Of a stretch of 64,000 nucleotides of DNA, positions 8,566-20,562 are shown piece by piece. The first letter of the stretch is position 1. Each line of letters starts with the position of its first letter. Source of the DNA: Mesorhizobium sp. B2-7-2 (GTDB lineage Bacteria; Pseudomonadota; Alphaproteobacteria; Rhizobiales; Rhizobiaceae); contig NZ_VFTZ01000004.1 in the NCBI RefSeq assembly GCF_006440775.1, forward strand, positions 62,001-126,000, in the 5' to 3' direction. The translations under genes were made by a program, and so were the position numbers. The notes beneath the pieces were generated by a model. It did not search any database. It had not been told where the DNA came from and saw nothing but the letters and a program-made list of their open reading frames with translations.

Positions 8566-10785
8566 ATGAGCTACACCAACTTCACCCTCGACGTGGACGC
8601 CGACGGCATTGCGCTGATCACCTGGGACATGCCGGACCGCTCGATGAACGTCTTCACCGAGGAAGTGATGCGCGAGCTGAACGCCATCGTCGATCATGTG
8701 GCCGGCGATGCCGCCCTCAAGGGCGCGGTCATCACCTCGGGCAAGGACAGCTTCTCCGGCGGCGCCGACATCGCCATGCTGCAGAAGATGCTGGCGACCT
8801 TTGCCGTCGACAAGGAGAATGACCTCGAGAAGGCGACCAAGGCGCTGTTCGACAATGCCGGCTACATGACCGGCCTGTTCCGCAAGATCGAGACTTGCGG
8901 CAAGCCGTTTGTGTCGGCGATCAACGGCACCTGCATGGGCGGCGCTTTCGAGATGTCGCTCGCCTGCCACGGCCGCGTCGCCGCCGATTCCGACAAGGTG
9001 AAGATGGCCCTGCCCGAGGTGAAGATCGGCATCTTCCCGGGTGCCGGCGGCACCCAGCGCGTGCCGCGGCTGACCGACCAGCAGCAGGCGCTGCAGATGC
9101 TGACCACCGGGCAGAACCTGACGCCGCAAAAGGCGAAGGCGATGGGCCTGATCCACGAGATGGCCGAGCCTTCGAAACTGGTCGAGACCGCCAAAGCGAT
9201 GATCCGGAACGGCCTGAAGCCTGTCGCGCCCTGGGACGAGAAGGGTTTCAAGCTGCCGGGCGGTCCGATCTATTCGGCGGCCGGCGCCAATCTCTGGCCA
9301 CCGGCGATCGCCATCCTGCGTCGCGAAACCTACGGCAATTATCCTGCCGCGGCCGCGATCCTGAAATGCGTCTATGAAGGCCTGCTGGTGCCGTTCGACA
9401 CGGCGCTCAGGATCGAGCAGCGCTATTTCACCGAGATCATGCAGTCGAAGGAAGCGGCGGCGATGATCCGCTCGCTGTTCCTGTCGCTGCAGGAACTGAA
9501 CAAGGGCGCGCGCCGCCCGGCCGGCGTGCCGGAGACCAAGTTCAAGAAGATCGGCATCCTCGGCGCCGGCTTCATGGGCGCCGGCATCGCCTATGTCACC
9601 GCACGAGCCGGCATTCCGGTTGTGCTGCTCGACCGCGATCTGCCGTCGGCCGAGAAGGGCAAGGCGCATTCCGACAGCCTGATGGCCGATCAGGTCAAGA
9701 AGGGCCGCGCCAAACCCGAAGACAAGGACAAGCTCCTGTCGCTGATCACGCCGACGGCGGACTATGCCGACCTTGCCGGCTGCGATCTCGTCGTGGAAGC
9801 GGTCTTCGAGGATTCGAGCGTCAAGAAGGAAGCCACGGAGAAGGCCGAAGCCGCGCTGAAGTCATCGGCCGTCTTCGCTTCCAACACCTCCACCATACCG
9901 ATAACTGCGCTGGCGAAGAATTCGGCGCGGCCGAAGAACTTCATCGGCATCCACTTCTTCTCGCCGGTCGACAAGATGATGCTGGTCGAGATCATCCTCG
10001 GCAAGAAGACGGGCGACAAGGCCTTGGCCGTCGCCTTCGACTTCGTGCGCGCCATCAAGAAGACGCCGATCGTCGTCAACGACACGCGCGGCTTCTACGT
10101 GAACCGCTGCGTGCTGCGCTACATGTCGGAAGCCTATAAGATGCTGATCGAAGGCATCCCGGCGCCGATGATCGAGAACGCCGCCAAGGCTGCCGGCATG
10201 CCGGTCGGCCCGCTCGCTTTGACTGACGAGACGGCCGTCGACCTTGCCCAGAAGATCATGAAGCAGACCATCAGGGATCTGGGCGAGAAGGCCGTCGATC
10301 CCGGGCAGATGGCGCTGATCAACACCATGGTCGATGCGCATGGCCGCTTCGGCCGTAAGAACGGCAAGGGTTTCTACGACTATCCGGCAAAGCCCGCGAA
10401 GAAGAAGCTGTGGCCTGGCCTGAAGGATCTCTATCCGCAGCTGAAGCCCGAAAAGGTCGACTATGAGGAGCTGAAGCAGCGCCTCTTGGTCACCATCGCG
10501 CTGGAAGCGGCCCGGGTGATGGAAGAGGGCATCGTCACCGATCCACGCGAGGCGGACGTCGGCTCGATCCTCGCCTTCGGCTTCGCGCCCTTCACCGGTG
10601 GCGCGCTGTCCTACATCGACGGCATCGGCGCCAAGCGTTTCGTCAAGATCGCCAAGGGGCTGCAGAAGAAATATGGCGCCGAGTTCAAGGCGCCAAAACT
10701 CCTGCTCGACATGGCCGAGAAGGGCGAGACCTTCTACCAGCGCTTCGACCCCTATCAGAAGGGTGAGGTCAGAGAGGCGGCCTGA
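8566..10785 (+). CDS. FadJ/FadB-type bifunctional enoyl-CoA hydratase / 3-hydroxyacyl-CoA dehydrogenase
   Basis: A 739-residue fusion. The N-terminal crotonase domain (residues about 1-190) has the oxyanion-hole stretch [11 protein letters not shown] and the motifs [10 protein letters not shown] and [17 protein letters not shown]; both catalytic glutamate positions are Glu. The 3-hydroxyacyl-CoA dehydrogenase part begins near residue 325 with the NAD-binding motif [16 protein letters not shown] and contains the [11 protein letters not shown] signature. A helical C-terminal domain follows. It hydrates trans-2-enoyl-CoA and oxidises the L-3-hydroxyacyl-CoA. GGGAGAGAG precedes the ATG. It completes the beta-oxidation cycle with its three upstream neighbours. 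Confidence 0.94.
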
Positions 10786-18296: not shown

Positions 18297-19064
18297 ATGA
18301 AAAAGCAGAAGCAACATGGGGTAGATGTTGCGATGGGCCTGTTCGACAGAACTCTGGAATACATAGACCAGTTGCAGCATGCTGGCACCGCGGCCGCGGT
18401 CTGCGAGAGGCTGCTCGGCATCACCTCGAGCTTCGGCCTAACCGCCTTGATGGCGGGAACCGTGCCGCAGCCGGGCACGCCGCGCGGCCGCCAGAAACAG
18501 CACGTGATGCTTTGCGATTGGCCCGGCGATTGGCTTGAGCGCTATGTGGCGCGTAACTATGTCGACCACGACCCGGTCGTCAGCCACATGAAGCAGCTTC
18601 AGGCGCCGTTCCAATGGCGGGACGCTTCCAAGACCGCCCTGATCGACAAGAACAGCGACGAAGTCATGGGCGACGCCCGCGAGTTCAAGCTGCGCGACGG
18701 CCTGGCGTTTCCGCTGGTCACGCTCGACGGCCAGATCGTCATGGTCTCGCTGGGCGGCGAATCCGTTGAATTGTCGGATGCGGAATTCGGAATGGTATCG
18801 CTCGCGTCGACCTATGCGATAGGCCGCGCCATGCAACTGCACACCAAGGCCGACAACGTCATCGATCACATAGAATTGACGGCGCGTGAGCGGGAGTGCC
18901 TGCAATGGGCCGCCGTCGGCAAGTCCGAATGGGAGATCTCGCAAATCCTCGGCATCTCGGAACACACTTCCGAGAAACACCTTCTTAACGCCAAGAGCAA
19001 ACTCGGCGCAGCCAACCGGGTGCAGGCAGTCGCGGAGGCGATTAGGCGCGGCTATATTAGCTAG
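18297..19064 (+). CDS. LuxR-family acyl-homoserine-lactone receptor/regulator
   Basis: A 255-residue LuxR-type protein. The N-terminal autoinducer-binding domain keeps the ligand-pocket signature (YVARNYVDHDPVV followed by FQW). The C-terminal HTH is LTARERECLQWAAVGKSEWE through ANRVQAVAEAIRRGYIS. It should bind an acyl-homoserine lactone and control the synthase gene 98 bp downstream. ATG 18297 has no good ribosome binding site; ATG 18333 (MGLFDRTLEYIDQL) is an equally plausible start and matches the usual N-terminus better. The 214 bp upstream of 18297 contain no gene; a TACCG-T-CGGTA palindrome touches the first ATG. Confidence 0.9.
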   Translation: MKKQKQHGVDVAMGLFDRTLEYIDQLQHAGTAAAVCERLLGITSSFGLTALMAGTVPQPGTPRGRQKQHVMLCDWPGDWLERYVARNYVDHDPVVSHMKQLQAPFQWRDASKTALIDKNSDEVMGDAREFKLRDGLAFPLVTLDGQIVMVSLGGESVELSDAEFGMVSLASTYAIGRAMQLHTKADNVIDHIELTARERECLQWAAVGKSEWEISQILGISEHTSEKHLLNAKSKLGAANRVQAVAEAIRRGYIS

Positions 19065-19081
19065 GTCGGCCGTGCCGACCT
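19063..19081. promoter_or_regulatory. Perfect palindrome between luxR and luxI (operator or hairpin)
   Basis: AGGTCGGC-CGT-GCCGACCT starts inside the luxR stop codon and lies about 80 bp before the luxI ATG. It could be a lux-type operator or an RNA hairpin; no T-run follows, so a simple intrinsic terminator is unlikely. Confidence 0.4.
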
Positions 19082-19162
19082 GGAAATTCTTGCCTGCGCA
19101 TTCGCGTAATATTTTAAGGGACATCACGGCCGTATCTTCCTCTTAAGCCCAGGAGACGGCTA

Positions 19163-19801
19163 ATGCTTTTTGCCCTTACCACTCAGGAACTCATGGAACG
19201 CCCCGACCTTTGGGAGGCGGTCCATCGCTTGCGCTACAAGATCTTCGTCGAGGAGATGGGTTGGACCGATCTCGCCCGTCCGGACCAGCTCGAGATCGAC
19301 CAGTTCGATCATGACGAGGCCGAACACCACCTCGTCATCCGCAACGGCGAACTGGCTGGTTACCAGCGCATGCTGCCGACCACACGGCCGCATCTTCTGA
19401 CGGACGTTCTGTCGGATCTCTGCGAAGGACCGTCCCCCTCGGGGCCGAATGTCTGGGAACTGACCCGCTACGCGGTGGCTCCGGGTTTTCGCGATGGCAA
19501 ACGCGGCGTCTCGACCGTCGGCACCGAGCTGATCGCCGGCTTCGTAGAATGGGGCCTGAAGCGCAACGTCAACCAGGTCATCATCGAGTTCGAGCCGATG
19601 TGGGTGCTGCGCGCCCTGCAACTGCACTTCCTGGCGACGCCGCTCGGTTACCAGCGCACCTATGGCAACCAGCAGGTCGTGGCGACGCTGCTCACCTTCA
19701 CCGAGCATACGCTCGATGTCGTGCGGGCCCGCCGCAACCACCACCTGCCGGTGCTGAACCGGGGTTATCCCGGTCTGCTCGGCCTCAAGCAGGCTTCGTG
19801 A
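19163..19801 (+). CDS. LuxI-family acyl-homoserine-lactone synthase
   Basis: A 212-residue autoinducer synthase. The invariant residues of the family are visible: Arg and Phe in LRYKIFVEEMGW, the acidic cluster EIDQFDHDEAEHH, and the ELTRYAV motif. It joins S-adenosylmethionine to an acyl-ACP or acyl-CoA. AGGAGACGGCTA precedes the ATG. The stop codon overlaps the ATG of an upstream start of the crotonase gene (TGATGG), so the two are translationally coupled. LuxI genes coupled to a crotonase gene are known in Mesorhizobium, where I recall the crotonase being needed for an unsaturated acyl signal; I cannot verify that here. Confidence 0.93.
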   Translation: MLFALTTQELMERPDLWEAVHRLRYKIFVEEMGWTDLARPDQLEIDQFDHDEAEHHLVIRNGELAGYQRMLPTTRPHLLTDVLSDLCEGPSPSGPNVWELTRYAVAPGFRDGKRGVSTVGTELIAGFVEWGLKRNVNQVIIEFEPMWVLRALQLHFLATPLGYQRTYGNQQVVATLLTFTEHTLDVVRARRNHHLPVLNRGYPGLLGLKQAS

Positions 19802-19812
19802 TGGAGGCGGTC

Positions 19813-20562
19813 ATGAGTTTCCATCCCGAACCGGAACTGCGCGGCCATACGCTGGTCGTCACCGTGTCCTCGCATGACGGCCGGCCAGTGCTCGACAGAC
19901 ACGCCTATGCGAGCCTTGCCAGGACCTTGCGCGATGCGGCGGTCAACGACGAGGTCCGCGTCGTCATGCTGCGCGGCCTTGCCGGCTGCTTCTGCCTTGG
20001 CGGCGACTTCTCGGAGTTCCTCGACGCCACCAAGCACCGAGAGTTGATCGCCGCCGTCACCGACATGTTCCGCATGTTGGCGACCTTCCCCAAGCCGGTC
20101 CTTGCCTGCGTCGACGGCGATGCTGTCGGCGTCGGCTGCACCATCCTGTTCCATTGCGACATGGTGATCGCTTCCAGGGGCAGCACCTTCAGGGTGCCGT
20201 TCGTCGATTTCGGCCTGGTGCCGGACGCGGCGACCAGCATTTTGGCGCCCCAGAAGCTCGGCTATGCCGGTGCGTTCCGCTTCTTCTGCCTGGGCGATAC
20301 GTTGGGCGTCGAGGACGCCAAGGCACTGGGCCTGGTCGGCGAGATCGTGACGCAAGGCAGCGCCGAGGAAGTAACGCTGGCAAGGGCCAAACAGCTGGCC
20401 AAGAAGCCTGTTGCGGCATTGCTGCAGACGCGCAGCCTGCTCAAGGGAGATACGGATGTGTTGTGCGACCGCATCGACCACGAGATCACGCTGTTCCAGC
20501 AGGCGCTTCAGGATGACACCACGCTGAAGCGGCTGCAGCGGATTGCTCGCCTGGCCGCCTGA
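19813..20562 (+). CDS. Crotonase-family protein coupled to luxI (isomerase-like, no hydratase glutamates)
   Basis: A 249-residue crotonase-fold protein. ATG 19813 follows GGAGG by 5 nt; ATG 19801 overlapping the luxI stop is the alternative. The oxyanion-hole region reads GCFCLGGDFSEFLDA. The two hydratase glutamates are absent: the GGGCE position reads GVGCT and the PE position reads PF in VPFVDFGLVPDAATS. The latter resembles PECI/PaaG-type enoyl-CoA isomerases, with Asp in VPD as a candidate acid/base. It probably shifts or sets a double bond in the acyl chain used by the adjacent LuxI. The reaction is inference. Confidence 0.85.
   Translation: MSFHPEPELRGHTLVVTVSSHDGRPVLDRHAYASLARTLRDAAVNDEVRVVMLRGLAGCFCLGGDFSEFLDATKHRELIAAVTDMFRMLATFPKPVLACVDGDAVGVGCTILFHCDMVIASRGSTFRVPFVDFGLVPDAATSILAPQKLGYAGAFRFFCLGDTLGVEDAKALGLVGEIVTQGSAEEVTLARAKQLAKKPVAALLQTRSLLKGDTDVLCDRIDHEITLFQQALQDDTTLKRLQRIARLAA

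Follow-up and report, generated by a model that had tools for sequence, protein, structure and literature searches.

What does a crotonase-fold enzyme, encoded directly behind a LuxI-type synthase, contribute to the signal that the synthase makes? The question is raised by a stretch of 64,000 nucleotides from Mesorhizobium sp. B2-7-2 (contig NZ_VFTZ01000004.1, positions 62,001 to 126,000; hereafter the window), in which a luxR, a luxI and a crotonase gene adjoin on the + strand of a 6.37-Mb genome. An earlier reading of the sequence (the original prediction) placed the three genes in one direction, which domain matches bore out, and took the crotonase for an isomerase that sets a double bond in the acyl chain of an acyl-homoserine lactone (AHL). 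Our comparison suggests that the crotonase is probably a single-acid isomerase, turning 2,5- or 3,5-dodecadienoyl-coenzyme A (CoA) from the beta-oxidation of cis-vaccenate into 2E,4E-dodecadienoyl-CoA for LuxI. It turns an open question into precise tests, with one predicted catalytic residue and one predicted substrate, which would derive from a major membrane fatty acid; the sister enzymes are expected to yield another signal, and one natural lineage that lacks the enzyme has an altered LuxI.

The operon and the LuxI-crotonase link are already published and are not new. Suo et al. (2023, PMC10470506) described the R1-I1-crotonase circuit mlr5637-mlr5639 of M. japonicum MAFF 303099, of which the three window genes are the orthologs. 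The signal of that circuit is reported to be N-[(2E,4E)-2,4-dodecadienoyl]-homoserine lactone (2E,4E-C12:2-HSL): LuxI makes it, LuxR responds to it, and the crotonase is needed for normal amounts. Deletion of the crotonase left little signal, as judged by bioassay and by a labelling test in which added signal kept luxI on, and a plasmid copy complemented the mutant (PMC10470506). The compound has also been found in M. loti NZP 2213, and is so reported for a second strain; analyses that rely on the 102 fragment had overlooked it before (PMC10470506). Both the statement that LuxI-linked crotonases occur in Mesorhizobium and the expectation of an unsaturated AHL from a crotonase-coupled LuxI thus agree with published work, the reported signal being doubly unsaturated and crotonase-dependent. 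Suo et al. ask how the crotonase contributes to the signal and, in the parts of the paper covered here, leave its role open; the words isomerase, beta-oxidation, vaccenic, aspartate and active site are absent from its main text. A second paper on this crotonase, or an assay of its isomerase activity, was not found among the papers listed from the open-access literature searched.

An aspartate branch among LuxI-linked crotonases

A residue that separates the window crotonase from its Glu-type relatives is Asp138, numbered from the ATG at 19813, the last letter of a VPFVDFGLVPD segment (residues 128-138). In the alignment, Asp138 pairs with an Asp of E. coli PaaG, which in turn corresponds to residue 136 of the T. 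thermophilus enzyme (counted along chain 3hrx). According to one review (PMC7497051), Asp136 of PaaG relays a proton between C2 and C4, the enolate being held in the oxyanion hole; D136 is also named in a second review (PMC9493321). The segment had been called PECI/PaaG-like, and both the segment and its position hold; the residue itself is the Asp of PaaG and not the Glu of PECI. The isomerase reading gains support at the level of sequence, from a single acid at the ECI2/PaaG position and from nearest solved relatives that include isomerases; isomerase activity is a prediction about the enzyme.

We compared distinct linked proteins of at least 200 amino acids with matches at E 1e-20 or better, leaving out L098, L157, L158 and L188. 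Among 89 such LuxI-linked crotonases, residue 138 is Asp in 79 and Glu in 10, the latter all outside Mesorhizobium. It is likewise Glu in all 14 unlinked close relatives compared and, at the LxPE position, in the sequence-nearest solved chains 4nek, 6lvo and 3fdu. The Asp type carries a second mark, an acid at position 103, present in 79/79 Asp-type enzymes (78 Asp, 1 Glu), in none of the 10 Glu-type linked enzymes and in none of the 14 unlinked ones. Further fixed differences of the Asp branch lie at positions 28, 31, 79, 92, 109, 113, 141 and 231, and the identity of the Glu-type linked enzymes to the window crotonase is about 31-44%, the value varying with the alignment. Neither this split between Asp and Glu nor the acid at 103, nor the lineage with crotonase loss discussed below, was found in the parts of PMC10470506 covered or among the papers listed from the open-access literature searched.

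The same division appears in two phylogenies. LuxI-linked crotonases form one clade (support 100/96 in the first tree, 95/81 in the second), within which the Asp type is a clade of its own (100/99 in both); the support of the Glu-type linked group is 88/74 and 97/88, respectively. In the second tree, built without the column of residue 138 and with the Asp type thinned to 18 of its 79 members, the Asp/Glu difference is explained by one change. The alignment omitted 15 entries (14 duplicate loci and L098) and the window's second copy, and the first tree another 13 near-identical ones. Phylogeny against known families had been suggested as a check on the isomerase reading: it gives the linked crotonases a clade of their own, and membership of the crotonase in PaaG was rejected because E. 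coli PaaG falls, in the first tree, outside the clade (48 rows, 99/98) that unites the linked crotonases with the closest unlinked ones. L098, a PaaG-like crotonase about 5 kb from a luxI, on the other strand and of 28% identity, was treated as a chance neighbour and dropped.

LuxI, crotonase loss and distribution

LuxI belongs to the acyl-CoA kind: the best solved relatives of its family profile are BjaI (5w8a) and a 4-coumaroyl-HSL synthase (6wn0). Two Trp of the BjaI "indole platform" are reported as the basis of acyl-CoA preference (PMC8188788); the pair aligns with LuxI residues 146-147, where W147 is kept and the other place is Met146. In a LuxI tree made by a quick method, 34 crotonase-linked rows group together with 3 unlinked rows among them (support 85); one identical and 3 near-identical rows, as well as many near-identical loci of the genus, were not put in.

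Two genomes with luxI alone (G008 and G082) hold remnants of the crotonase. At L158 (G082, M. caraganae) N-terminal and C-terminal pieces lie in different frames, and at L157 (G008) tblastn finds a C-terminal piece alone, with break points that differ from those of L158. L158 and L188, both from M. caraganae, were taken as one locus, so that the remnant cases amount to two genomes. The LuxIs of these genomes are changed at residues 143 and 151 (Table 1), for which the crotonase-linked set comprises 78 named loci and the window, without L164, which has no crotonase downstream. They also have Val in place of Met146, which is invariant in 72 Asp-type rows. Altogether, 5 and 8 of their residues differ at columns that are otherwise invariant; when Asp-type LuxIs were left out singly, each showed at most 3 such differences and 62 of the 72 showed none. 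The two remnant LuxIs are identical at 197 of 212 residues and share changes, and we therefore count the two genomes as one lineage, not as two independent cases. These observations fit a re-tuning of LuxI along with crotonase loss in the M. caraganae lineage. In the neighbouring LuxR, the change G42A is shared by L157 and L158, where 74/74 intact loci have Gly (39 invariant columns).

The operon is well conserved. The R1-I1 pair is reported from some 90% of almost 500 Mesorhizobium genomes, as well as from two other genera (PMC10470506). In 119 genus genomes we found luxI in 106 (E 1e-70 or better) and the crotonase in 104 (E 6e-132 or better, the next matches being a paralog of about 35-40% identity). 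Both genes were present in 104 genomes, luxI with a crotonase remnant in 2, neither in 13 and the crotonase alone in none, a split from which we conclude that their co-occurrence exceeds chance. Beyond the genus, LuxI relatives (E 1e-25 or better) occur in 36/297 genomes of the family, 40/397 of the order and 4/385 of the class, sets that overlap and include the genus itself. Among the best 80 of 140 relatives, luxI with a linked crotonase is carried by, for example, Nitratireductor, Aquibium, Martelella, Hansschlegelia, Methylopila and Pinisolibacter; Nitratireductor and Methylopila had already been named in PMC10470506. In two genomes with luxI and no linked crotonase (G592, G615), the best crotonase elsewhere is of the unlinked type, with 51-56% identity to those enzymes, and in a third (G722) no crotonase was found elsewhere in the genome at E 1e-20. 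Pinisolibacter aquiterrae has two near-identical luxI copies on different contigs (L164/L166, also L089/L090), one with a crotonase downstream and one for which none was found.

A proposed route to the 2,4-diene and its alternatives

By orthology with M. japonicum, where all but the shared transcript has been demonstrated by others, the three genes would form an autoinducing circuit: LuxR would sense the signal and act at the luxI box, and the signal itself would be made by LuxI together with the crotonase, presumably from one transcript. Three rounds of beta-oxidation on C18:1 omega-7 would leave a C12 chain with a double bond at position 5. cis-Vaccenate would in this way yield 5Z-dodecenoyl-CoA, whose dehydrogenation would give 2E,5Z-dodecadienoyl-CoA. 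With Asp138 as proton shuttle and the oxyanion hole holding the thioester enolate, the crotonase may then shift the inner double bond into conjugation, either directly (C4 to C6) or via the 3,5-diene, and LuxI would join the resulting 2E,4E-dodecadienoyl-CoA to S-adenosylmethionine. The change from Glu to Asp at 138 and the acid at 103 would be the signature of the branch to which the known 2E,4E producers belong, and the Glu-type linked enzymes would be expected to make a different signal. The precursor is plausible for this genus, as M. onobrychidis is listed with C18:1 omega-7c first among its major fatty acids, "similar to other Mesorhizobium spp." (PMC9603459), and fabA is present in the genome. 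In E. coli, about 10% of oleate is reported to end as 3,5-dienoyl-CoA for lack of a dienoyl-CoA isomerase (PMC9329746). A query with E. coli FadH (first 612 residues), on whether a dienoyl-CoA reductase might compete for the product, returned relatives of 32% identity at best.

The structure model, also proposed as a check, leaves the choice where it was. An AlphaFold2 model of the crotonase from 25 sequences reached a mean predicted local distance difference test score (pLDDT) of 91.9, and its top matches are tied: 3fdu (Z 32.5), the CDY domain 2fw2 (32.3), OdaA (32.1), BoECI 6lvo (32.0) and human PECI 2f6q (31.8). The modelled fold agrees with an isomerase without proving one, and since the top rows are tied we rejected the structure ranking as a means of choosing the function.

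Several points weigh against the assignment to a 2,5- or 3,5-dienoyl-CoA isomerase. We infer the substrate, the product and the role of Asp138, and the weakest step of the mechanism is proton delivery to C6 by a single Asp, perhaps together with Asp103, a candidate second catalytic acid. A dienoyl-CoA isomerase reportedly requires an Asp and a Glu, as the title of a 1998 paper by Modis has it; the place of that Glu in ECH1 is presumably that of Phe130 here, and Asp138 would fit its Asp. The proton transfer reported for the Asp of PaaG runs between C2 and C4 and does not extend to C6 (PMC7497051), and another review (PMC4498308) gives PaaG one catalytic glutamate, where E. coli PaaG has Asp at the aligned place. 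Both crotonase trees came with long-branch warnings. In the structure search CDY domains tie with the isomerases, and entries named hydratase appear from Z 29.8, level with a mitochondrial enoyl-CoA isomerase at 29.5. Finally, two LuxIs keep F143 and A151 although no crotonase was found nearby, that is, within about 7 kb of the L092 luxI and within 4 kb downstream of L164, the second Pinisolibacter copy.

Among the alternatives, an ordinary delta3-delta2 enoyl-CoA isomerase would carry out one shift only (for example 2,5 to 3,5) and leave it to another enzyme to finish the 2,4-diene. Its attraction is that such isomerases stand among the top structure matches and that the C2/C4 shuttle of PaaG works from an acid at this very place (PMC7497051); yet Asp138 and the acid at 103 separate the branch from the Glu-type enzymes, and this genome already holds a Glu-type relative (own_L142), which makes the alternative unlikely in our judgment.

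A dehydratase could reach the same product, making the 2,4-diene from 3-hydroxy-4-enoyl- or 5-hydroxy-2-enoyl-CoA, much as DspI, the crotonase of another signal pathway, is proposed to dehydrate 3-hydroxyacyl-CoA (PMC5834635). DspI is described as using two glutamates, however, and here the two hydratase glutamates of E. coli PaaF align with Thr110 and Phe130, so that the GGGCE and PE motifs of a hydratase are both absent. This absence had been predicted, down to the GVGCT motif, and was confirmed. Thr110 and Phe130 are the same in 79/79 Asp-type, 10/10 Glu-type linked and 14/14 unlinked enzymes. The absence of the glutamates is common to the unlinked relatives and is thus, on its own, no special mark of this operon, but it leads us to regard hydratase or dehydratase chemistry as improbable. 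That the protein performs no double-bond chemistry, and is a scaffold or hydrolase that passes on or shields the acyl-CoA or clears away its competitors, is in keeping with the diverse reactions of crotonase-fold proteins (PMC10470506) and with the CDY matches, but is judged improbable; Asp138, Thr110 and Phe130 are the same in every Asp-type enzyme, which suggests a constrained active site.

Returning to the conjugating isomerase, a broader proposal can be put forward, tentatively. LuxI-linked crotonases would form a distinct group that programs the AHL chain, with a Glu-type isomerase paired with an acyl-CoA LuxI in Hyphomicrobiales; in the Asp branch, the change from Glu to Asp and a second acid would have produced an isomerase of dienoyl-CoA, 2,5- or 3,5- to 2,4-. 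A different AHL would then belong to each of the Glu-type circuits (Hansschlegelia, Methylopila, Pinisolibacter, Martelella) and to the M. caraganae remnant lineage, with LuxI re-tuned to match. If the isomerase reading holds, a one-residue change in a beta-oxidation-type isomerase can accompany a private signal in root-nodule symbionts.

Layout of the locus and comparison with known systems

The features of the locus are collected in Table 1. From 18333, luxR measures 732 bp, the size given for R1 of MAFF 303099, and luxI and the crotonase gene are 99-100% identical to loci of named Mesorhizobium records (L216, L219).

Table 1. Coordinates of the features discussed (window positions) and the basis for each.
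Feature	Position	Strand	Basis
luxR-type receptor, R1/mlr5637 ortholog	18333..19064	+	Autoind_bind PF03472 and GerE PF00196
luxR alternative in-frame start	18297	+	
lux-box-like inverted repeat, centre 19101.5	19093..19110	.	alignment of 37 upstream regions
luxI-type AHL synthase, acyl-CoA kind, I1/mlr5638 ortholog	19163..19801	+	PF00765, E 5e-16
LuxI Phe143 codon	19589..19591	+	Phe in 79/79 crotonase-linked LuxIs; Val in two remnant genomes
LuxI Ala151 codon	19613..19615	+	Ala in 79/79 crotonase-linked LuxIs; Thr in two remnant genomes
Crotonase alternative in-frame ATG	19801	+	
GGAGG, likely crotonase ribosome-binding site	19803..19807	+	sequence and start regions of relatives
Crotonase-fold protein, predicted acyl-CoA double-bond isomerase, mlr5639 ortholog, 249 aa	19813..20562	+	ECH_1 PF00378, E 2e-33
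Crotonase Asp103 codon	20119..20121	+	residue comparison of linked and unlinked crotonases
Crotonase Thr110 codon, first hydratase Glu position	20140..20142	+	alignment with PaaF
Crotonase Phe130 codon, second hydratase Glu position	20200..20202	+	alignment with PaaF
Crotonase Asp138 codon, predicted proton-shuttling acid, PaaG Asp136 position	20224..20226	+	alignments; PaaG role as reported in PMC7497051

The original prediction noted that the luxI stop overlaps an ATG of the crotonase frame. The overlap is real (TGA at 19799-19801), but the crotonase probably starts at the second in-frame ATG, at 19813, since it is preceded by GGAGG and since loci outside the genus do not keep the overlap. 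At eight junctions compared there, luxI and the crotonase are 38-125 bases apart, and in six the corresponding position holds an ATG that follows a purine-rich stretch; the aligned start is GTG in L026 and ambiguous in L024. In two Mesorhizobium loci (L021 and L022) an in-frame upstream ATG does overlap the luxI stop.

Upstream, the centre of a lux-box-like repeat lies 61.5 bp ahead of the luxI ATG, as it does for the published R1 box. The repeat is degenerate in this genome, and its core TACGTGATCACGTA occurs in perfect form at 4 of the 37 aligned loci (L029, L033, L034, L036). Another inverted repeat, AGGTCGG-CCGTG-CCGACCT at 19063-19081, begins inside the luxR stop codon; by eye, both arms are exact in 15/19 rows of the genus and in 0/18 other rows.

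Elsewhere, the genome has two further luxI-type genes (L001, G000:C4:16247-16771; L002, G000:C1:184618-185142), near which no match to this crotonase was found within the fetched 3.5-kb loci. About 10 kb from the operon, a crotonase domain at window 8602-9207 lies within a 743-amino-acid open frame (own_L145), which groups with another long open frame (own_L141) and, judged by length, is probably FadB-like.

The closest known system is the R1-I1-crotonase circuit of M. japonicum, which has the same gene order and direction, a box 61.5 bp before luxI, a LuxI of the acyl-CoA type and an adjacent crotonase. The gap between luxI and the crotonase is 11 bp in the window, counted from 19813, and is stated as 8 bp for MAFF 303099 (PMC10470506), whose genes were compared by description. 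PaaG, the 1,2-epoxyphenylacetyl-CoA isomerase, shares with the window crotonase an Asp at the aligned position (E. coli, T. thermophilus) and the lack of hydratase glutamates, but has a different substrate and, as represented by the E. coli enzyme, falls outside the clade of linked and closest unlinked crotonases. The delta3-delta2 isomerases of the ECI2/PECI and BoECI kind have the same fold, and 6lvo shares PF in place of PE and an acid at the same alignment position; the window crotonase differs from them by Asp instead of Glu, by the extra acid at 103 and by its linkage to LuxI, its residues having been aligned with those of 6lvo. DspI, of the diffusible signal factor (DSF) type, resembles the window enzyme as a crotonase with a proposed part in forming the unsaturated chain of a signal for quorum sensing; set apart here by description, it uses two glutamates and makes a fatty-acid signal instead of an AHL (PMC5834635).

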